Shown one piece after another: positions 29,702 to 41,052 of a stretch of 41,167 nt of DNA. Within the stretch, counting starts at the first letter, position 1. Each line of letters opens with the position of its first letter. This stretch comes from Catenulispora pinistramenti (GTDB lineage: Bacteria > Actinomycetota > Actinomycetes > Streptomycetales > Catenulisporaceae): the NCBI RefSeq assembly GCF_018274385.1, contig NZ_JAAFYZ010000076.1:1-41167 (forward strand), written 5' to 3'. Position numbers and translations under genes: made by a program. The notes under the pieces were generated by a model, which did not search any database, was not told the DNA's origin, and saw nothing but the letters and a program-made list of their open reading frames with translations.

Positions 29702-29785
29702 TGCTGTATCAGGCAACGTTTGCGCGGGAGTTTTCGCGGGGTGGTTCGCGGCGTGCCGGTCGGCGGGCGGGATCTGTTGGCGGGT

Positions 29786-29830
29786 GGAGTTTGCTGGGGG
29801 CTTGAGTTTGCTGGGGGCTGGAGTTTGTGG
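29786..29830 (+). repeat. 17-bp tandem repeat in the R1 left arm
   Basis: GGAGTTTGCTGGGGGCT (29786-29802), TGAGTTTGCTGGGGGCT (29803-29819) and a third partial copy. R2 has one shortened unit plus a partial (about 39846-39871) at the same place, so copy number differs between elements. Confidence 0.8.
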
Positions 29831-29984
29831 GCCGGGTTGCGGTTGGTGTTTGGGTTGAAAGGCGATTTTTACGGCCTTCGGTCATAGTTGTACCGGTTCG
29901 GGGTTCGGGGCGGCGTGTTTGTTTGTCGGCTGCCGGTTTCCGCGTTCACAACCCCGCCCCACCTCAGGCCTCTTCAACTCCAGC

Positions 29985-30050
29985 AAGTCAGAGCAAGAGC
30001 AAGAGCAAGAGCACAGGCAAGATCAAGAGCTGAAGGTCAAGGTCAAGGGC
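29985..30050 (+). repeat. Purine-rich microsatellite-like stretch in R1
   Basis: Iterated AGAGCAAG, then CAGGCAAGATCAAG and AAGGTCAAGG. The corresponding stretches in R2 (40020-40100) and, inverted, in the R1 right arm (31040-31085) use the same words in different numbers. Confidence 0.75.
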
Positions 30051-30160
30051 TGTGATGAAGGGCCGGGCCTCCGGCGGGCCTCGGCAACCTCAGGGAAACT
30101 AGCGCGGTTCCCTCGGGTGGCCGATCTAGTCTCAGCGGCTGCGGTTTGTGAGGTGGCTAC

Positions 30161-30336
30161 GGTCCGTTCCCCTCGGTCGCGTCGTCAGCCCGGGGGGTAC
30201 AGCACCGGTGTCCGGGGGTAAAGTCCGCGCGCTTGCGGTCATGCGTGTGAGCTGCGGTTTTGTGCAGCGCGAACTTGACCCCCGGCCACCGGCACTGTAG
30301 GCGAAGCCCTGCCGACGCGACCGAGGGGAACGAACC
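30161..30336 (+). repeat. R1 left hairpin: module A (+) facing module B (-)
   Basis: Module A is 30161-30231 (71 bp, starts GGTCCGTTCCCCTCGGTCGC). Module B is 30267-30336 (70 bp) on the minus strand, starting GGTTCGTTCCCCTCGGTCGC in its own direction. A and B align without gaps at about 56 of 70 positions; the main difference is a 9-bp block (A CCCGGGGGG, B GGCTTCGCC). Facing each other across 35 bp, they make an imperfect hairpin of about 175 nt with a 9 x 9 internal loop. Confidence 0.9.
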
Positions 30337-30361
30337 GAAAACCAGCCGGAGAAATACAAAA

Positions 30362-30730
30362 CGCCGGGAACGAGGACACCGGTTGGTTGATACGGCTGCC
30401 GGTGAGGGTGTGGCGGCGGGCCGGTGGTTAGTTGGTCGAGAGCATGCCCGGGTGCGGTGCAGTGCAGTTAACAGGCCCAAGTGCAGTGCTGAACAGCCAT
30501 GCCTGCGTTGAGAGTCGAAGGCCCGGACCGGAGGCAGTCCGGCGACTATCGCAGCCGCTCTCTGACGATCTTTCTCGGCAACCTGCTATACCGGCGGTGG
30601 TATCGATTGTTTGTTGCCGCCGGGCCGATCCGGCGCCCGCCAACCCGGAACGCGCACCTCGGATACCGGCGCGCTGGCCAGACCGGGACCGGTGGCCGAA
30701 CTCGCCGGGCCGCCGGTACCGCACCCCCTG
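30362..30730. other. Centre of R1, no gene seen
   Basis: It shares patches with the centre of R2, such as GCGGCTGCCGGTGAGGG, CGGGTGCGGTGC and GATCCGGCGCCCGCCAACC, but much of it differs and no reading frame is kept in both. Local inverted words such as CCGGACCGGAGGCAGTCCGG suggest secondary structure. Confidence 0.7.
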
Positions 30731-30755
30731 TTTTGTATTTCTCCGGCTGGTTTTC

Positions 30756-30930
30756 GGTTCGTTCCCCTCGGTCGCGTCGGCAGGGCTTCGCCTACAGCGC
30801 CGGTGGCCGGGGGTCAAGTTCGCGCTGTGCGAAACCGCAGCTCAGGCACCCAACCGCCGCGCGCGGACTTTACCCCCGGACACCGGTGCTGTACCCCCCG
30901 GGCTGACGACGCGACCGTGGGGAACGGACC
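30756..30930 (+). repeat. R1 right hairpin: module B (+) facing module A (-)
   Basis: Module B is 30756-30825, differing from the other B copies by one base (CTACAGC for CTACAGT). Module A is 30860-30930 on the minus strand, differing from the left-arm A by one base (CCCCACGG for CCCCTCGG). The order is the mirror image of the left hairpin. Confidence 0.9.
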
Positions 30931-31280
30931 GCACCACCTCACCGGCCGCAGCCGCTGAGACTGACCCGGCCACCCGAGGGAACCGCGCTAGTTTCCCTGA
31001 GGTTGCCGAGGCCCGCCGGAGGCCCGGCTCTTCATCACAGTTCTTGATCTTGCTCTTGCTCTTGACTGTGCTCGTGCTCTGACTTGCTGGAGTTGAAGAG
31101 GCCTGAGGTGAGGCGGGGTTGTGAACGCGCGAACCGGCAGCCGACAAACACACCCACCACCCCGAACCCCGAACCGGCACAACTATGACCGAAGGCCGTA
31201 AAAAGCTTCTAAAACCCACACGCCAACCGCACCCGGCCTCGCAAACTCCCGCCCCCAAAAGAACTCCCACAGCGCCGCTC

Positions 31281-31365: not shown

Positions 31366-33489
31366 CTACTCGACAGCAGAAACCTTGTCGATCACCCAAG
31401 CGAGCGTGAAAGCCTCCTCCTGCCAAGCCGTGTAGCGCCCCGACCGGCCGCCATGCCCGGCGTCCATCTCGGTCTTGAGTAGGAAGTCCTGCTCGCCGCC
31501 GGCCTCGGCTCGCAGCCGGGCGATCCACTTGGCCGGCTCGTGGAAGCCGACGCGGGTGTCGTTGAGGCTGGTGAGGGCCAGGATCGCCGGGTATTGGACG
31601 TTCGCGACGTTCTCGTAGGGGCTGTAGCCCTTCATGTAGCCGTAGATCTCGGGGTCCTCGACCGGGTTGCCCCACTCCTCCCACTCCATGACGGTCAGCG
31701 GCAGGTCGGGGTCGAGGATCGTGTTGAGCGCGTCGACGAAGGGGACCCCGGCGACGATCGCGCGGAAGTCGTCCGGTGCGATGTTTGCCACGGCGCCCAT
31801 CAGCAGGCCGCCGGCGCTCGCGCCGCGTGCGGCGAGCCGGTCCGGGGCGGTCCAGTGGTCGGCGACCAGTTGGCGGGCGCAGGCGACGAAGTCGGTGAAG
31901 GTGTTGCGCTTGTTGAGGAACTTGCCGTCTTCGTACCAGTGCCGGCCCATCTCGCCGCCGCCGCGGATGTGGGCGATGGCGAAGACGAAGCCGCGGTCGA
32001 GCAGGCTCAGTCGTGCGATGGAGAAGGACGGGTCGATGGAGATCTCGTAGGCGCCGTATCCGTACAGGACACAGGGATTCGAGCCGTCGGCGACGACGCC
32101 CTTCTTGTGGACGAGTGTCACCGGGACGCGCGCGCCGTCCTGCGCGGTCGCCCAGACCCGCTCCTGTTCGTAGTCGGCGGGGTCGTAGCCGCCGAGCACG
32201 GGCTGCTGCTTCAACAGGGTCAGCTCGCCGGTCGTGACGTCGTAGTCGTAGACGCTGGAGGGCGTGACCATGGAGGTGTAGCCCAGGCGGTAGCGGGTGC
32301 TGTCGTAGTCAGGGTTCTGGCTCCCGCTGACGGTGCGGATCCGCTCCGGGAACTCGATCGGCTCGCCGTGGGCGGCCGGAGTTCCGCTGTCCGCGTCGAT
32401 GCCGTGCACGGCCAGCCCGGTGAGCCCGTCGCGCCGGTAGCCGACGACGAGGTGGCCGGCGAAGACGTCGACGGCGTCCAGCCGGGTGCCCTGCCGGTGC
32501 GGGACGAGCGGGGTCCACGCTGTGTGGTCGCCGAGGGCGGAGACCGGCGCGGTGGCGAGTTCGAAGTCGGTCTTGCCGTCGGCGTTGTGCAGGACCAGGA
32601 GCAGGTCCCGGGACGGATCGCCGGGATGGCTCCAGTGGTCCACCGAGTACTCGACGCCGTCCCGGCGCGGTGCGGCGATCTGGAACGTCCCGGTCGGATC
32701 GTCGGAGTCCAGCAGCCGGACCTCGCTGGTGACCTGCGAGGAACAGGTGATCTCGATGAACCGCTCGCTGCGCAGCAGGCTGACGTCGACGAAGAACCGG
32801 TCGTCGTCCTCCTGGAAGACGACCTCGTCCTGCTCGGTGGGCGTCCCGAGCGCGTGCCGGTGCACGCGGTAGGGCCGCCAGGCGTCGTTGATCGTGGTGT
32901 AGAACAGCGTCGAACCGTCGCGGGACCAGGCGGTCGAGTAGTAGGTGTTGGCGACCTCGTCGGCGAGGTCTTCCCCGGTCGCCAGGTCGCGCACCTTGAG
33001 CGTGAACCGCTCGTCGCCGACGACGTCGAGGGCGTAGGCCAGGAGCTTGCCGTCGGGGGAGACCTCGAACGTGCCGAGGGCGAAGAACTCGTGCCCCTCG
33101 GCGAGCGCGTTGCCGTCCAGCAGCACGTGCTCGCCGGGCAGCGCGGAGCCGTCCTGGGGCAGTGCGGGCGGCGTCGGGCCGTCGGCGGCGACCCGGCAGG
33201 AGATCGAGTACTGGAGCCCTTCGACGCTGCGGGAGTAGTACCACCAGTCGCCCTTGCGGGTGGGGACGGACAGGTCCGTCTCCTTGGTCCGGGCCTTGAT
33301 CTCCTGGAAGACCGTCTCGCGCAGATCGGCGAGCCCGGCCGTCGTGGCCTCGGTGAAGGCGTTCTCATCCTTGAGGTACGCCAGGACCTCGTCGTCCTCC
33401 CTGTCGATCAGCCAGGCATAGGGATCGTTGACGACGTCACCGTGGCGGGAACGCTCATGGTCACGGCGGGCTGCTACCGGCGGCTTCAT
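31366..33489 (-). CDS. ptrB: Oligopeptidase B (protease II, S9A)
   Basis: A 707-residue prolyl-oligopeptidase-family serine peptidase that cuts short peptides after Arg/Lys in the cytoplasm. Residues 1-70 and 420-707 form the alpha/beta hydrolase fold and the middle forms the beta-propeller that excludes large proteins. The start is typical: PPVAARRDHERSRHGDVVND then PYAWL. The catalytic triad is Ser558 in RGASAGGLLMG, Asp644 in LTSLNDTRVG and His679 in AGHGGRSG. The oligopeptidase-B signature IRGGGEMGRHWYEDGKFLNK is present. ATG 33489 is used. It converges on element R1. Length and motifs are those of an intact enzyme, with no signal peptide. Confidence 0.94.
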   Translation of the reverse strand: MKPPVAARRDHERSRHGDVVNDPYAWLIDREDDEVLAYLKDENAFTEATTAGLADLRETVFQEIKARTKETDLSVPTRKGDWWYYSRSVEGLQYSISCRVAADGPTPPALPQDGSALPGEHVLLDGNALAEGHEFFALGTFEVSPDGKLLAYALDVVGDERFTLKVRDLATGEDLADEVANTYYSTAWSRDGSTLFYTTINDAWRPYRVHRHALGTPTEQDEVVFQEDDDRFFVDVSLLRSERFIEITCSSQVTSEVRLLDSDDPTGTFQIAAPRRDGVEYSVDHWSHPGDPSRDLLLVLHNADGKTDFELATAPVSALGDHTAWTPLVPHRQGTRLDAVDVFAGHLVVGYRRDGLTGLAVHGIDADSGTPAAHGEPIEFPERIRTVSGSQNPDYDSTRYRLGYTSMVTPSSVYDYDVTTGELTLLKQQPVLGGYDPADYEQERVWATAQDGARVPVTLVHKKGVVADGSNPCVLYGYGAYEISIDPSFSIARLSLLDRGFVFAIAHIRGGGEMGRHWYEDGKFLNKRNTFTDFVACARQLVADHWTAPDRLAARGASAGGLLMGAVANIAPDDFRAIVAGVPFVDALNTILDPDLPLTVMEWEEWGNPVEDPEIYGYMKGYSPYENVANVQYPAILALTSLNDTRVGFHEPAKWIARLRAEAGGEQDFLLKTEMDAGHGGRSGRYTAWQEEAFTLAWVIDKVSAVE

Positions 33490-33713: not shown

Positions 33714-35411
33714 ATGAGCGAGGCCGCCTCCGCACCCCGCGTCGTCATCCTGACGGTCGACGACGACCCGGGCGTCTCCCGTGCCATCGCCCGGGACCTG
33801 CGTCGCCGGTACGGCGGCGACTACCGGATCGTCCGTGCCGAGTCCGGTGCCGCCGGGCTTGAGGCGTTGCAGGAGCTCAAACTGCGCGGTGACCTGGTGT
33901 CGCTGCTGATCGCCGACCATCGGATGCCGGAGATGAACGGCGTCGAGTTCCTGGAACGCGCCATCGACATCTACCCGGCCGCGCGCAGCATCCTGTTGAC
34001 GGCCTACGCGGACACCGAAGCGGCCATCGACGCGATCAACATCGTGGACCTGGACCACTATCTGCTCAAGCCGTGGGACCCGCCGGAAGTGAAGCTGTAT
34101 CCGGTGGTCGACAGCCTGCTCGAGGGCTGGCTGGCGGAGGACCACCGCGCGGTGTTGGAGACCCGCGTCGTCGGCCATCGCTGGTCCGCGCGTTCGACCG
34201 AGGTGCGCGAGTTCCTGGCCCGCAATCAGGTCCCTTACCGCTGGTACGCGTCCGACGAGCCGGAGGGCCGACGGCTGCTGCTGGCCGCCGGGCAGGATCC
34301 GGACGCGGCCGGCACCGGCGAGGCGCGGCTGCCGCTGGTGATCGCCCCGGACGGCGGCATCCTGCTGGAGCCGGACGATCAGGAGCTCGCGGACCACGTC
34401 GGTCTGCGGACGACGCCGGCCGGCGAGTTCTATGACCTCATCGTCGTCGGCGGCGGTCCCGCCGGCCTCAGCGCCTCGGTGTACGGGGCGTCCGAGGGGT
34501 TGCGGACGGTCCTCGTGGAACGGCTGGCGACCGGCGGGCAGGCCGGTCAGAGCTCTCGGATCGAGAACTACCTCGGCTTCCCCAACGGCGTCTCAGGCGC
34601 CCAGCTGACCGGCCGGGCCCGCCGTCAGGCCGCCAAGTTCGGTGCCGAGATCCTGACCGCGCGCGAGGTCGCCGGACTGGAGATGTGCGGCTCCTCGCGG
34701 CTGGTGCGGTTCGCGGACGGCACGGCCATCGGCGCGCACACGGTCATCCTGGCGATGGGCGTCGAGTACCGGCGGCTGGAAGCGCCGGGCATCGACGAGC
34801 TCACCGGCAAGGGGGTGTCCTACGGCTCGTCGTTGTCCGAGGCGATGAACTGCGAGGGCCGGCACGTCTTCATCGTCGGCGGCGCGAACTCGGCCGGGCA
34901 GGCCGCGGTGTACCTGTCGCGCTTCGCCAAGTCGGTGACGCTGGTCGTCCGGGCCGAATCGCTGGCGGCTTCGATGTCGTACTACCTGATCCAGCAGATC
35001 GAGCAGATCCCGACGATCGTCGTCCGGTCCCGGACCGAGGTCGTCCAGGCACACGGCGAGGAGCACCTGGAGCGGCTGACGCTCCGGGACTCGGACGCCG
35101 GCACCACCGAGGACGTCGACGCGCAGTGGCTGTTCGTGTTCATCGGGGCCGCTCCGACCACCGACTGGCTCGACGGCGTCGTGGAGCGTGACTCGCGCGG
35201 GTTCGTGCTCACCGGCCCGGACCTCGTCCCCGGTGGCGCGACGATCAAGGGCTGGGCGCTGGATCGCATCCCCTATCTGCTGGAGACGAACGTGCCGGGG
35301 GTGTTCGCGATCGGCGACGTCCGCTCCGAATCCACCAAGCGCGTCGCCTCGGCGGTGGGGGAGGGCGCGATGGCGGTCATGCTCGTGCACCGGTACGTGG
35401 AGAAGCTGTGA
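33714..35411 (+). CDS. Receiver domain fused to thioredoxin-reductase-like flavoprotein
   Basis: A 565-residue fusion. Residues 8-125 form a response-regulator receiver with VDDD (16-18), phosphoacceptor Asp68 in LIADHRMPEMNG and Lys in LLKPWD. Residues 145-235 resemble a glutaredoxin-like fold (RWSARSTEVREFLARNQVPY). From 240 it is a thioredoxin-reductase type flavoprotein: FAD motif DLIVVGGGPAG, then GGQAGQSSRIENYLGFP, NADPH motif IVGGANSAGQAA (387-398), and FAIGDVR near the end. The redox CxxC of true thioredoxin reductase is absent: the region reads SYGSS (369-373), leaving Cys380 alone. GGGGAG precedes ATG 33714. It overlaps the sensor-kinase gene (GTGA), so phosphorylation probably controls an enzyme rather than transcription. 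Confidence 0.9.
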   Translation: MSEAASAPRVVILTVDDDPGVSRAIARDLRRRYGGDYRIVRAESGAAGLEALQELKLRGDLVSLLIADHRMPEMNGVEFLERAIDIYPAARSILLTAYADTEAAIDAINIVDLDHYLLKPWDPPEVKLYPVVDSLLEGWLAEDHRAVLETRVVGHRWSARSTEVREFLARNQVPYRWYASDEPEGRRLLLAAGQDPDAAGTGEARLPLVIAPDGGILLEPDDQELADHVGLRTTPAGEFYDLIVVGGGPAGLSASVYGASEGLRTVLVERLATGGQAGQSSRIENYLGFPNGVSGAQLTGRARRQAAKFGAEILTAREVAGLEMCGSSRLVRFADGTAIGAHTVILAMGVEYRRLEAPGIDELTGKGVSYGSSLSEAMNCEGRHVFIVGGANSAGQAAVYLSRFAKSVTLVVRAESLAASMSYYLIQQIEQIPTIVVRSRTEVVQAHGEEHLERLTLRDSDAGTTEDVDAQWLFVFIGAAPTTDWLDGVVERDSRGFVLTGPDLVPGGATIKGWALDRIPYLLETNVPGVFAIGDVRSESTKRVASAVGEGAMAVMLVHRYVEKL

Positions 35412-35473
35412 CCCCCGCGGAGCCGGTACGCGGAGAGGCTGTGACCGCCGCGGAGCCGGTCCACGGCGAACCG
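35408..35473 (+). repeat. 33-bp tandem duplication at the kinase start
   Basis: Unit 1 (35408-35440) and unit 2 (35441-35473) both begin GTGACC, then CGCGGAGCCGGT at the same offset, encoding [10 protein letters not shown] and [10 protein letters not shown]. The duplication copies the start codon itself. Confidence 0.85.
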
Positions 35474-36958
35474 CGGGTGTGCAGCGTGGATGAACTGCGC
35501 AGCCTGTTCCTGTTCGAGAAGCTGACCGGGGAACAACTGAACTGGCTGTGCGAGCACGGCACCGTCGAGGCCTACGAGCCCGGCCGGGTGTACAGCGAAG
35601 GCGAAGACGCGCAGTGGTTCTACGTCCTGCTGGAGGGGACGGTCGTGCTGTCGCGCCGGGTCGGGGCCGACGACGTCGAAGTGACGCGGACCTCCCAGCG
35701 CGGCGTCTACAGCGGTGCGTTCCAGGCCTATCTCGGCGACCGTGTGCAACAGATCTACCGGAACTCGTTGTCGGTGACGGTTCCCTCGCGGTTCTTCGTG
35801 GTGTCCGCCGAACTGTTCTCCACGATGATGCACGAGTGGTTCCCCATGGCGGTGCACCTGCTGGAGGGCTTGTTCTTCGGCACCCAGATCCAGCAGCAGA
35901 TCGTCGGCGGCCGGGAGCGGCTGCTCGCGCTCGGTGCTCTGTCAGCCGGACTGACCCACGAGCTGAACAACCCGGCGGGCGCCGCCCTGCGCGCCGCTTC
36001 CACGCTGCGCGAGACAGTGGCCGGCGTCCGGTCCGACCTGGCCGCACTCGCCGCGCACGGGGACCGGGCACCGAGCCTGGACACACTGGTCTCGCTGCTG
36101 AACCGCGCCACCGAGCTCGCCGCGCAAGAAAAGGCCTCCGCGCTCGGCCCCCTGGAGATCTCCGACCGCGAAGACGCGATGTCCGACTGGCTCGAAGACC
36201 GGGGCGTCGAGAACGGCTGGCAGCTCGCCCCCACGTTCGTGCAGGGTGGTCTTGAGGCCGACGACCTGGAGCAGATCACCGGCAGCGTGGATGACAGTGT
36301 TCTGCCGGCGGTCTTGTCCTGGCTGGCCCGAACCCTGGAGACCGAGGGGCTGACGGCCGAGATCGAGGAAGCCACACACCGGGTCTCGGACCTAGTCGGG
36401 GCCGCGAAACAGTACTCGCAGCTGGACCGCGCCTCCCAGCAGGAAGTCGACGTCCACGACCTGCTGGACAGCACCGTGACGATGCTCTCGGGCAAGATCC
36501 CCAACAACGTGCGCATCGTGAAGCACTATGGCACGGACCTGCCCCGGATCCCCGCCTACCCCGCAGAGCTGAACCAGGTGTGGACCAACCTCATCGACAA
36601 CGCCGTAGCGGCGATGGCCGACGGGGGAATGGCTGACGGGGCAAACGGCGGAACACTGACGATCAGCACCGGCCTGGACCGCGACCACCTGGTCGTCGAC
36701 TTCCAGGACACCGGCCCCGGCGTCCCCGACGAGATCAAGGACCGGATCTTCGAGCCCTTCTTCACCACCAAGCCCGTCGGCAAGGGCACCGGCCTCGGCC
36801 TGGACATCTCCTGGCGCATCGTCGTCAGCAGACATCACGGCGACCTGAGCGTCGAGTCGAAGCCGGGGGAGACCCGGTTCCGGGTCCGGCTGCCGGTGCG
36901 GTGGGATGGCGAGGGTGAGGGTGAGGCGGGGCCGACCCCCGCGCCTGACGTCGCCTGA
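35408..36958 (+). CDS. Sensor histidine kinase with cyclic-nucleotide-binding-like domain
   Basis: A 516-residue soluble kinase. Residues 31-160 form a cNMP-binding-like beta-barrel ([20 protein letters not shown], then [20 protein letters not shown]). The histidine box is [14 protein letters not shown] with His184; about 180 residues of helical insert follow before the ATPase. HATPase motifs are [23 protein letters not shown] and [12 protein letters not shown] Gly/Met-rich loop ([13 protein letters not shown]) sits after the N box. GTG 35408 overlaps the stop of the receiver-flavoprotein gene. The first 22 residues are a duplicated 11-residue unit encoded by a 33-bp tandem repeat, so GTG 35441 could also start translation. 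It is the obvious cognate kinase of the fusion protein. Confidence 0.92.
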
Positions 36959-37013: not shown

Positions 37014-37550
37014 CTACCTCTCCCGCTGTTTGCTGTAGTGCCGTGCCACGCGGGCCCGATTTCCGCAGCTCGTGCTGCACCATTCCCGCCGCGGATGATC
37101 CTTCACGAAGTACTGGACGCAGCCCGGCGCGTGGCACGCGCGCACGTCCTGGCGCTGATCGCCGCCGATCAACAGGACGGCGCCGCGGGCGACCGTTCCT
37201 CGGGCCTGATCCAGCGGGTCGGCGGCGGACAGTTCGATCACACCCCAGCCGCCGTCGGAGTCTGCCAACAGCGGTGCCCGTGCGGCGCGCGCCGAGGCGT
37301 CGTTGACGACGTCCACGGCGCCGGTCGGCAACGGCTCGCCTTCGGCCGTGGCGTGCAGCAGAGCGCGGATAGCGTCACGGAGTCCGATGAACGCCGGCAG
37401 GTCTGATTCCCCCGCGTCCGCCGGCAGCGAGTGCTCGCGCAGCCAGGTGGACAGGGCGTGGGGAGTCTCTAGGCCTTCGCGTTCCCTGCCTCGGACGGCA
37501 TACCGGGTGTTCGCGAACTCGATGGCGAGCGGGCCGGCGGCTTCCTTCAT
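37014..37550 (-). CDS. CGNR zinc-finger (ABATE-domain) transcription factor
   Basis: A 178-residue regulator. The N-terminal part (about 1-130) matches the ABATE stress-sensor domain: LAIEFANTRYAVRG, then LREHSLPADAGESDLPAFIG and LRDAIRALLHATAEGE. The C-terminal CGNR finger reads CHAPGCVQYFVKDHPRREWC then STSCGNRARVARHY, with four Cys to hold zinc and the name-giving CGNR intact. These proteins are thought to bind DNA. The ATG at 37550 has no clear ribosome site and may be leaderless. It is divergent from the MFS exporter gene, and repeated GTTAGAW half-sites fill the 91-bp gap, so it probably controls both genes. Confidence 0.9.
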   Translation of the reverse strand: MKEAAGPLAIEFANTRYAVRGREREGLETPHALSTWLREHSLPADAGESDLPAFIGLRDAIRALLHATAEGEPLPTGAVDVVNDASARAARAPLLADSDGGWGVIELSAADPLDQARGTVARGAVLLIGGDQRQDVRACHAPGCVQYFVKDHPRREWCSTSCGNRARVARHYSKQRER

Positions 37551-37551
37551 T

Positions 37552-37631
37552 TTCTAACGATAGCAGTCGCTTGCATCCATTAGATTGTGCCGTCATTATC
37601 TAACTGTTGCCAGCCACTACAACCGTTAGAA
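37552..37631. promoter_or_regulatory. Divergent promoter with four GTTAGAW-like half-sites
   Basis: TTCTAACG (37552-37559) and CGTTAGAA (37624-37631) are perfect inverted arms at the two gene starts. Inside them TTAGAT (37580-37585) and ATCTAA (37598-37603) form a second inverted pair. The region is AT-rich compared with everything around it. Symmetry suggests one dimeric regulator, probably the CGNR protein, acting on both promoters. Confidence 0.65.
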
Positions 37632-37641
37632 AGTGGGGGAC

Positions 37642-38991
37642 ATGACGTCCACCGTCACCGCGGTGCCGGCCGCCGAGGAGCGCCGGGGCCCCGACGGGGC
37701 TTCCCGGCCCGCGTCGTTGTGGGGCAACCGGGACTTCCTGAAGTTCTGGTCCGGCGAGACGCTGTCCCTGTTCGGGACCCAGGTCACGACCCTGGCCATC
37801 CCGCTGACCGCCGTCCTGGTCTTCAAGGCGACACCGGCCCAGGTCGGTCTGCTCCGCTTCCTGCAACTGGTCCCGTACCTCGGGCTGGCGATGGTGTTCG
37901 GCGTGTGGGTGGACCGGGGGCGCCGCAAGCCGGTGATGATGCTGGCGAACGGTGCCCGCATGGTGTTGATCGCGTCCATCCCGGTGCTGTCGGCCACCCA
38001 CCGCCTGACGCTCGGGCTGCTGCTCGGCATCGCCTGCGCGGTCGGCGTCTTCTCGGTGCTGTTCGATGTGAGCTGGATGGCGTTCGTGCCGACGCTGGTG
38101 AAGGAACCGGAGCACTACGTCGAGGCTAACCAGAAACTCGGTGTCACCTCCTCCAGCGCGGACGTGGCGGGCCCGGGGGTGGCCGGGGCCGTCATCAGCG
38201 CCCTGAGCGCGCCGACCGCGTTGGCCCTCGACGGCGTCTCCTACCTGATCTCGCTGCTCACGCTGCTGTGGATCCGCACCCCGGAGCCGCGTCCGGCCGC
38301 ACCCGCGCAGCAGGCCGAGCGGCACCTGACCGCCGAGTTGCGCCAGGGACTGCGCTTCGTCTTCGGCGACCGGATCCTGCGGCCGCTGGCCCTGATCGCG
38401 CCGTTCTGCAACTTCTCGATGGTCGGCGTCTGGACGATGTTCCTGCTCTACGCGACGCGCGGGGCGGGGCTGAGCCCGGCACAGGTCGGGATCGTGTTCG
38501 CGGCCTCGTCGGTCGGCGGCCTGATCGGCGCGGCGCTCTCGCGCCGGCTGATCGCACGCTTCCGGCTCGGCGCGCTGTACGCGGTGTCGATGATCGCGGT
38601 GTTCGTCGCTCCGCTGCTCATCCCGCTGGCGTCCGGCCCGCGCCCGGTGCTGCTGACGGCGTTCATCGCCTCGTTCTTCCTGGCGTACCTCGGCCTGGGC
38701 GTCGCCAACGTCGTCGTGATCAGCCTGCGGCAGGCGTCCACCCCGCAGCCGCTGATGGGCCGGATGAACGCGGCGTTCCGCACGGTGCTGTTCGGCGGCG
38801 GGGCACTGGGCGGCCTGGCCGGCGGCCTCATCGCCGGGGCGATGGGCCCGCGGGCGGGTCTGGCGGCCGTCGCGACCGGCTCGGCACTGATGGTCCTGCC
38901 GGTGCTGCTCTCACCGGTGACCCGCTTGCCGGCCATGCCGGGCATGCCAGCCATGCCAGCCATGCCGGCCGACCCCGAGGGCCGGGAGTGA
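37642..38991 (+). CDS. MFS exporter (enterobactin-exporter/DHA3-like)
   Basis: A 449-residue, 12-helix major facilitator transporter. The start FLKFWSGETLSLFGTQVTTL and the loop VFGVWVDRGRRKPVMMLANG are typical of the MFS_3/DHA3 exporter group. Around residue 145 it has SWMAFVPTLVKEPEHYVEAN, also typical. Such proteins expel drugs or siderophores by proton exchange; the cargo is unknown. ATG 37642 is preceded by GTGGGGG; GTG 37633 is an alternative. The C-terminus has iterated PAMPGMPAMPAMPA encoded by 9-bp repeats of CCATGCCAG. The stop lies six bases before the MOSC gene start, and the divergent CGNR gene is the likely regulator. Confidence 0.9.
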   Translation: MTSTVTAVPAAEERRGPDGASRPASLWGNRDFLKFWSGETLSLFGTQVTTLAIPLTAVLVFKATPAQVGLLRFLQLVPYLGLAMVFGVWVDRGRRKPVMMLANGARMVLIASIPVLSATHRLTLGLLLGIACAVGVFSVLFDVSWMAFVPTLVKEPEHYVEANQKLGVTSSSADVAGPGVAGAVISALSAPTALALDGVSYLISLLTLLWIRTPEPRPAAPAQQAERHLTAELRQGLRFVFGDRILRPLALIAPFCNFSMVGVWTMFLLYATRGAGLSPAQVGIVFAASSVGGLIGAALSRRLIARFRLGALYAVSMIAVFVAPLLIPLASGPRPVLLTAFIASFFLAYLGLGVANVVVISLRQASTPQPLMGRMNAAFRTVLFGGGALGGLAGGLIAGAMGPRAGLAAVATGSALMVLPVLLSPVTRLPAMPGMPAMPAMPADPEGRE

Positions 38992-39698: not shown

Positions 39699-40210
39699 AC
39701 CGGGTGGACGGATACCGGAGATCTCCAGGTAGCTTTCGGCCTAGTGCTGTATCAGGCAACGTTTGCCCGGGAGTTCGCGCTTTGCTCGGGAGTTCGCGAT
39801 GTGGTTCGTGATGTGCCGGTCGGCGGGCGGGATCCGTTGGCGGGTGGAGTCTGCTGGGGCTGGAGTTTGGGGGCCGGGTTGCGGTTAGGCTGTGGTTGTA
39901 AAGCTTTTTACGGCCTTCGGTCATAGTTGTGCCGGTTCGGGGTTCGGGGCGGTGGGTCTGTATCTCGGCCGCCGGTTCGCGCGTTCACAACCCCGCCGCA
40001 CCTCAGGCCTCTTCAACTCCGGCAAGTCAGGGCAAGGACACAGGCAAGATCAACAGCACAGGCAAGATCAAGAGCTGAAGGTCAAGGTCAAGGTCAAGAG
40101 CTGTGGTGAAGGGCCGGGCCTCCGGCGGGCCTCGGCAACCTCAGGGAAACTTGCGCGGTTCCCTAGGGTGGCTGGGTGAGTCTCAGCGGCTGTGGTTTGT
40201 GGGGTGGTGC

Positions 40211-40385
40211 GGTCCGTTCCCCTCGGTCGCGTCGTCAGCCCGGGGGGTACAGCACCGGTGTCCGGGGGTAAAGTCCGCGCGCGGCGGTCGAGCATTTGAC
40301 CTGCGGTTTCGTATGGCGCGAACTTGACCCCCGGCCACCGGCACTGTAGGCGAAGCCCTGCCGACGCGACCGAGGGGAACGAACC
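40211..40385 (+). repeat. R2 left hairpin: module A (+) facing module B (-)
   Basis: Module A 40211-40281 and module B 40316-40385 (minus strand) are identical, base for base as read by eye, to the R1 left-arm modules, although the 34-bp loop between them differs from the R1 loop at many positions. Confidence 0.9.
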
Positions 40386-40398
40386 GAAAACCAGCCGG

Positions 40399-40730
40399 AA
40401 GAATGGCAATCGCAGGGACCGACAACGCGGGTCGGCGATGCGGCTGCCGGTGAGGGCGTGGCGGCGGGTCGGTGGTCAGTTGGTCGAGAACATACCCGGG
40501 TGCGGTGCGGGACACTGCGCCCACAACAGCCAACCGCCAGTTGCTGATATCCCGGCAGGCCTTGCTGCCCGCAGCATCGGCGTTGGCGGTCAGGTCAATC
40601 CGCTATCCGGCGGTGGCCATCTTGATAGTCGGGTCGATCCGGCGCCCGCCAACCAGGGATGTGCACACCGGCACTGGCGCGTTGGCCAGTACCTGGACCG
40701 GCGGCCGTATTTGCCGAGCCTCCGGTACCC
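40399..40730. other. Centre of R2, no gene seen
   Basis: It is homologous in patches to the R1 centre (GCGGCTGCCGGTGAGGG, TGGTCGAGA, CCGGCGCCCGCCAACC) but strongly diverged elsewhere. Reading frames present here are not kept in R1, so it is probably not protein-coding. Confidence 0.65.
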
Positions 40731-40765
40731 GCACCCCCTGTTTTGTATTTCTCCGGCTGGTTTTC

Positions 40766-40941
40766 GGTTCGTTCCCCTCGGTCGCGTCGGCAGGGCTTCG
40801 CCTACAGTGCCGGTGGCCGGGGGTCAAGTTCGCGCCGAACAAAACCGCAGCTCACACGCATGACCGCAAGCGCGCGGACTTTACCCCCGGACACCGGTGC
40901 TGTACCCCCCGGGCTGACGACGCGACCGTGGGGAACGGACC
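40766..40941 (+). repeat. R2 right hairpin: module B (+) facing module A (-)
   Basis: Module B is 40766-40835 and module A 40871-40941 (minus strand). This A copy carries the same single change (CCCCACGG) as the R1 right-arm A, so left and right positions have kept their own versions in both elements. Confidence 0.9.
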
Positions 40942-41052
40942 GCACCACCTCACAAACCGCCGCCGCTGAGACTGACCCAGCCACCTGAGGGAACCGCGCT
41001 AGTTTCCCTGAGGTTGCCGAGGCCCGCCGGAGGCCCGGCTCTTCATCACAGT

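Follow-up and report, generated by a model that had tools for sequence, protein, structure and literature searches.

What does a two-component system control when its response regulator ends in a flavoprotein in place of a DNA-binding domain? The question is raised by two adjacent genes in a stretch of 41,167 nt from Catenulispora pinistramenti (assembly GCF_018274385.1, contig NZ_JAAFYZ010000076.1, forward strand; hereafter the window), whose genome comprises 11.46 Mb. The first gene encodes a fusion of a receiver, a glutaredoxin (Grx)-like domain and a thioredoxin reductase (TrxR)-like flavoprotein domain, and the second a histidine kinase with a cyclic nucleotide-binding (CNB)-like domain. 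Both open reading frames are present and overlap by four bases, as described in an initial annotation made from the DNA letters. The best explanation, for which confidence and doubt are about evenly matched, is that the two genes form a dedicated two-component pair: the kinase would phosphorylate Asp68, and the receiver would gate a dithiol-less flavoprotein that passes NAD(P)H electrons from flavin adenine dinucleotide (FAD) to a partner.

Occurrence of the gene pair

Relatives of the pair were examined at named loci, which are the best 80 of at least 588 candidates and are all actinobacterial by title. All 80 had a kinase relative downstream in the same orientation as the fusion, and the best-scoring kinase started at most 150 bp from the fusion stop in 77 of them. 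Tandem kinases occurred at two loci (L117 and L118), the first one abutting the fusion, and a gap of ~1.2 kb separated fusion and kinase at a third (L095). Among 296 genomes of the class, fusion matches at E≤1e-60 were present in 158 and kinase matches at E≤1e-40 in 107, all of which belonged to the 158 with a fusion match. By position, 110 of 125 listed kinase matches lay directly downstream of one of 131 fusion matches (131 of the 150 listed fusion rows were taken for this comparison). On these comparisons, the kinase looks dedicated to the fusion, and the proposal of a two-component pair with a flavoprotein as its output is borne out. The initial claim that it is unusual does not hold, given the number of class genomes with a fusion match and a receiver fusion in print since 2018 (PMC5847659). 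Chance or an isolated oddity is rejected by the conservation.

Occurrence outside actinobacteria is known from plasmid records; in annotated records such fusions bear the name FAD-dependent oxidoreductase. Deinococcus and Caballeronia plasmids carry an annotated pair of FAD-dependent oxidoreductase and ATP-binding protein, and on a Nostoc plasmid the gene for an ATP-binding protein lies three genes downstream; these ATP-binding proteins are candidate relatives of the window kinase.

Four alignments were used. The first (A1) held 26 relatives and excluded L011 (score equal to L010), L015 and L037 (partial); the second (A2) excluded L014 and seven more distant rows of A1; the third (A3) covered 59 of the 80 named loci; and the fourth (A4) covered 55 of 80 kinase rows, L060 and L114 having been dropped beforehand. 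Clustering of neighbouring genes was dominated by shadow frames and served as a lead only.

Receiver residues and presence of the kinase

The residues D16-D18, D68, T96 and K119 were invariant in 60 of 60 aligned receivers, and Asp68, initially named as the phosphorylation site, coincides with the conserved phosphoacceptor position. A natural control was provided by 60 further loci, fetched with and without an adjacent kinase, at which the receiver residues were read. Of the 21 fusion matches without a downstream kinase, 20 were taken (a contig-end piece, G152:C57, was excluded), and the other 40 loci were hand-picked; L212, from which the fusion was not recovered, was excluded from the receiver count. 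A receiver signature was considered complete with an acidic pocket, D68, T or S at position 96, and K119.

The complete signature was found at all 80 named loci and in all 23 further fusions with an adjacent kinase, or 103 of 103. Without an adjacent kinase, 33 of 36 receivers were degenerate, usually with T96 and often with K119 altered, and for the three intact exceptions (L196-L198) the contig also holds a kinase, at a distance of ~17-22 kb. Eight genomes held one counted copy of each sort. This co-variation of receiver and kinase supports phosphorylation control and is the best evidence for it here, short of proof; it also supplies natural controls for assays.

Cysteine sites and cofactor motifs

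The SYGSS segment of the fusion aligns with the CxxC segment of homologous TrxRs, as had been pointed out in the initial annotation. At this site CxxC occurred in 0 of 140 aligned members, and its absence is a family trait. The first CxxC position was Gly in 139 of 140 and Ala in the remaining one, and Tyr370, which precedes it, was kept in all 139 relatives with letters there. Nor did M421 and S422 vary among the 139 relatives that have letters at those positions.

The Grx site reads S158-A-R-S161 where two-dithiol relatives have CPDC, and a profile comparison of the window family's Grx-like segment with L254 and L258 aligned S158 and S161 to both cysteines. The two positions were Ser-Ser in 86 of 140 aligned members, and five relatives had any Cys within residues 155-162. 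The two-dithiol relatives that were read (L038, which is the same gene as L258, L254 and L257) combine CPDC or CSDC with CATC. L255 and L256 yielded no readable protein, and L257 is absent from the two-row Grx profile. The dithiols may have been lost by the window family rather than gained by these relatives, a direction that a tree rooted only at its midpoint leaves tentative.

The FAD motifs GxGPxG, GGQ and GD were invariant in 140 of 140 members, and so were the nucleotide-motif residues N392, S393, A394 and Q396, where the window reads GGANSAGQA. Since the dithiol relay is absent while the cofactor motifs are kept, the fusion is not a broken gene. HRRxxxR is the motif for the 2'-phosphate of NADPH, and the fusion reads VR413AESLAAS at the site where NADPH-dependent TrxRs carry it. 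The FAD and NADPH motifs that had been described as retained are therefore kept as regards FAD and GGANSAGQA, and HRRxxxR is replaced.

Domain assignment and coordinates

The domain order of receiver, Grx-like and TrxR-like parts that had been read from the translation holds, with Pfam domains over their cut-offs on both sides of a Grx-like segment recognised by profile comparison (Table 1). Response_reg scored 52.1 bits (cut-off 30.2), and Pyr_redox_2 exceeded its cut-off at residues 240-551, while the Grx-like segment alone gave no match to Pfam. A sequence match to a TrxR (4e-43) was far stronger than the best match to a ferredoxin/flavodoxin NADP+ reductase (FNR; 1.3e-19). A plain thioredoxin reductase is nevertheless rejected as the identity of the protein, with the CxxC missing and a score for TIGR01292 (thioredoxin reductase, NCBIfam) of 224.9 bits, below the cut-off of 343.45. 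In the structure searches, coverage was largely confined to the cores of TrxR and kinase, with very little of the receiver, the Grx-like and CNB-like domains or the DHp insert included.

Table 1. Coordinates of the gene pair and its features in the window (all residues numbered within the respective protein)
Feature	Window position	Strand	Residues	Basis or remark
Gene 1: receiver + glutaredoxin-like + thioredoxin-reductase-like flavoprotein, first in the pair	33714..35411	+	565 aa	
Receiver domain; phosphoacceptor Asp68, D16-D18, T96, K119	33747..34091	+	12-126	Pfam Response_reg 8.3e-14
Glutaredoxin-like domain	34155..34418	+	~148-235	hhalign prob 98.8, E 4.6e-17 to Grx domains of L254 + L258; strand/helix order in model
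Thioredoxin-reductase-like FAD/pyridine-nucleotide domain, without CxxC	34425..35399	+	238-562	Pfam, structure alignment, FAD motifs
SYGSS at the CxxC position of homologous TrxRs	34818..34832	+	369-373	
Cys380 codon	34851..34853	+	380	Cys in 81/81 close relatives, variable elsewhere
Overlap of gene 1 stop and gene 2 start, GTGA	35408..35411	+		
Gene 2: histidine kinase, CNB-like domain + DHp (His184 in HELNNP) + HATPase, second in the pair	35408..36958	+	516 aa	
Insertion of ~83 residues, mostly helical, between the two long DHp helices	36053..36301	+	216-298	Predicted from model secondary structure

Proposed mechanism and alternative explanations

In the proposed mechanism, a signal would be sensed through the CNB-like domain of the histidine kinase, which would then phosphorylate Asp68 of the receiver. 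The phosphorylated receiver would shift the position or the access of the flavoprotein domains, in place of a DNA-binding output. Hydride from NAD(P)H would be transferred onto FAD and, because no dithiol is present, electrons would exit FAD directly, passing to a partner that may be held by the Grx-like domain and not via CxxC to thioredoxin. Response regulators known to be redox enzymes in their own right are few. If phosphorylation does gate a disulfide-free flow of flavin electrons, a sensor kinase could act post-translationally on the redox state of the cell, by a route that is common in actinobacteria.

Several points weigh against this mechanism. The loci were selected and not random. 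In a tree of the TrxR core, which was midpoint-rooted, included 12 of the 81 close sequences and had a Streptomyces as the named row nearest to the window, the degenerate copies formed one clade of 32 and a separate copy (L194); they represent two placements and not 33 independent cases. In L194, ~1.2 kb remains after the fusion to the contig end, with a gene for a UBP-type zinc finger (zf-UBP) at the place of the kinase, and a farther kinase is possible. Contig ends also shorten the sequence available after the fusion in L219 (0.8 kb) and L235 (0.9 kb), and since the kinase profile was built from close relatives, unlike kinases could be missed. The structure model of the fusion is of moderate confidence (mean pLDDT 79.6, pTM 0.60), with pLDDT <50 at residues 272-293 and 536-545, beside the FAD motifs. 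Finally, as the motif for the NADPH 2'-phosphate is non-canonical, NADH, NADPH or no turnover are all possible.

The foremost alternative is a sensor of redox or NAD(P)H without turnover, in which the flavoprotein would report the NAD(P)H or FAD state and, with the receiver as its contact, would tune the kinase or a third protein, for instance the zf-UBP protein. It would account for the absence of both dithiols beside retained FAD motifs and for the occurrence of the same core in pseudo-receiver and CNB-fused versions, which shows it to be combined with more than one kind of regulatory part. A sensor is nonetheless rather unlikely: the phosphorylation residues retained alongside the kinase point to signalling from kinase to flavoprotein, and the invariance of N392, S393, A394 and Q396 suggests binding and perhaps turnover. 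The initial claim that the electron acceptor must differ from thioredoxin was over-stated, as it is plausible, yet a non-catalytic sensor fits too. No relatives with verified thioredoxin reduction were found to carry SYGSS.

An FNR-like NAD(P)H:ferredoxin or flavodoxin reductase with a TrxR-type fold, under phosphorylation control, appears improbable. TrxR-like FNRs share the fold with the fusion and are without CxxC, and FNR1 of Bacillus cereus (6gar) aligned to the core of the fusion model with Z 25.9, rmsd 4.9 and 303 aligned residues. However, canonical TrxR (5usx; VIA Z 31.8, rmsd 2.8, 306 aligned) and AhpF (4xvg; Z 31.7, rmsd 3.8, 302 aligned) aligned better, and the sequence matches to FNRs are much weaker. 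FNRs are, moreover, not known to have a Grx-like domain, and TrxR-like FNRs are not known to have a receiver. By sequence as well as structure, the likeness of the fusion to TrxR-like ferredoxin/flavodoxin NADP+ reductases (PMC10294844) is weaker than its likeness to TrxR.

Disulfide reduction through a single thiol, namely Cys380, or through thiols of a partner is given very little credence. The fusion contains two cysteines in total, 325 and 380, and the latter had been noted as standing alone. Cys380 is invariant in all 81 close relatives, and the CNB-fused proteins L034 and L035, and by eye L192, have a Cys at a like place. In contrast, another residue (V, F, H, Y or T) stands there in 6 of 23 further kinase-paired relatives, and of the 36 relatives that lack the kinase, 31 have M, L or V; besides, Cys380 falls at neither position of the CxxC. 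With such replacements in many relatives, Cys380 is rejected as a family-wide catalytic residue and, judged from the alignments, is a trait of the close clade and not the catalytic thiol of the family. The absence of the usual catalytic cysteines might also suggest a pseudo-enzyme in decay that merely accompanies the kinase, a reading scarcely credible against the invariance of the FAD motifs and of Y370, M421 and S422 and the wide distribution.

As a whole, the observation underlying the initial annotation is confirmed. From its interpretation, the dedicated pair and the CxxC-less state as a family trait stand, and the role of Cys380, the NADPH motifs, the claim about the acceptor and the rarity of the pair are unsupported or over-stated.

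Histidine kinase

HATPase_c of Pfam matched residues 386-497 of the window kinase over its cut-off (80.9 bits), and H184, N398, G436, G438, G460, G462 and G464 were invariant in 56 of 56 kinases. HisKA stayed below its cut-off on the window kinase (14.7 bits against 26.9), and 46 of 56 members matched it at E≤1. The same holds for the cyclic-nucleotide domain that had been read from the window copy: cNMP_binding scored 15 bits against a cut-off of 27.5 in this copy, although 56 of 56 family members matched at E≤1, the best at 3.2e-13.

The phosphate-binding cassette for cyclic nucleotides carries GE...R. In the kinase family, the place expected for GE is taken by an invariant G103-A104, and the probable site of the Arg shows no conserved Arg, although the window copy has R118; both readings were made by eye in an uncertain alignment. 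The Arg of this pattern is also replaced, by eye, in two of three CNB-fused proteins (L192 and L034). Given these altered residues, the ligand may not be a cyclic nucleotide. The insertion in the DHp domain may lie close to the docking place of a receiver and possibly binds the flavoprotein.

Alternative layouts and the zf-UBP gene

In an alternative layout, a CNB domain is fused directly to the same Grx-like and TrxR-like core without a receiver, so that a CNB-like domain reaches the core either by direct fusion or by way of kinase and receiver. A zf-UBP gene, a frequent third member, was present at 36 of the 80 named loci, 35 times next after the kinase and once elsewhere on the other strand (L115). 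Among the further loci, 4 of the 23 with a paired kinase and 5 of the 36 lacking an adjacent one had it. The fusion, kinase and zf-UBP genes all overlap by 4 bases in Streptomyces fungicidicus and Tsukamurella tyrosinosolvens. Of 296 genomes, 137 had both a zf-UBP gene and a strong fusion match, 36 the zf-UBP gene only, 21 the fusion match only and 102 neither (Fisher p 2.4e-27, uncorrected for kinship). The host genome of the window contains a zf-UBP gene of the type found in the three-gene operons (P0003) on a separate contig (C63:15620-15967). An obligate operon partner is rejected, as the gene occurs at 36 of 80 named loci and, in this genome, on another contig. The zf-UBP protein may bind the fusion, and a connection of it with pupylation is conceivable.

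A second zf-UBP gene of the host genome lies at C638:38957-39148. On a plasmid of Streptomyces angustmyceticus (L192:168-5296), clpB, trxA, zf-UBP and CNB-fused TrxR-like genes follow in a row, a neighbourhood hinting at a role of the CNB-fused form in protein quality control or stress. A more far-reaching idea, regarded as a long shot, is a signalling output of a kind of its own: a dithiol-free, flavin-only switch with three exchangeable inputs (CNB kinase with receiver, fused CNB, and pseudo-receiver), in which the NAD(P)H state and the phosphate signal of the two-component system would jointly determine the targets bound by the zf-UBP protein, possibly in protein quality control.

Comparison with known systems

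A census of 2018 names a combination of receiver and thioredoxin reductase, termed a "Mycobacterium-like combination" (PMC5847659). Those regulators likewise join a receiver to a TrxR domain, and in the accessible part of that source the domain combination alone is given; neither a Grx-like domain nor the absence of dithiols, a kinase partner or a function is mentioned. The fusion of receiver and TrxR is thus already known; the missing dithiols, the apparent dedication of the kinase, the co-variation of receiver residues and kinase, and the zf-UBP and CNB layouts are new here. No functional study of the fusion and kinase pair was found among titles and abstract openings of the open-access literature, and the window protein is not described in the accessible parts of PMC9025218, PMC8945050 and PMC5069765. 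No paper combining a UBP-type zinc finger, thioredoxin and bacteria was found in the open-access literature.

Proteins named "cyclic nucleotide-binding domain-containing thioredoxin-disulfide reductase" (e.g. WP_260640578.1) have the same CxxC-less core, ~46-50% identical over residues ~150-563. They differ from the window fusion by the CNB domain fused directly and the absence of a receiver, and a zf-UBP neighbour was seen in the one case opened. The missing cysteines cast doubt on the database name "thioredoxin-disulfide reductase" for some relatives, because three CNB-fused proteins (L034, L035 and L192) are without CxxC.

Low-Mr thioredoxin reductase shares the fold and the FAD motifs with the window fusion, which differs from it by the absence of CxxC, the non-canonical NADPH motif and the added regulatory domains. 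In AhpF and the two-dithiol Grx-TrxR proteins (L038, L254 and L257), as in the fusion, the TrxR core is preceded by a thioredoxin-fold domain. AhpF carries CxxC in both domains, as do the three two-dithiol proteins, whereas the fusion has SARS and SYGSS.

Flanking region

A search for promoter-like sites returned none. Downstream of the pair, at window positions 37014-38991, a gene for a CGNR zinc-finger (ABATE) regulator lies divergent to one for an MFS transporter, and upstream a prolyl oligopeptidase gene occupies 31366-33489 on the minus strand; these genes look unrelated to the two-component pair. A composite repeat of >1.2 kb is found on either side of the region, one copy at 29733-31208 and the other at 39793-41052. 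Each copy is palindromic internally, with arms of up to 167 and 182 nt per copy, and 327 nt between copies. A 183-nt piece recurs across the genome in at least 40 near-identical copies (40 of 284 candidates scored), several at contig ends, so that it may break the assembly.

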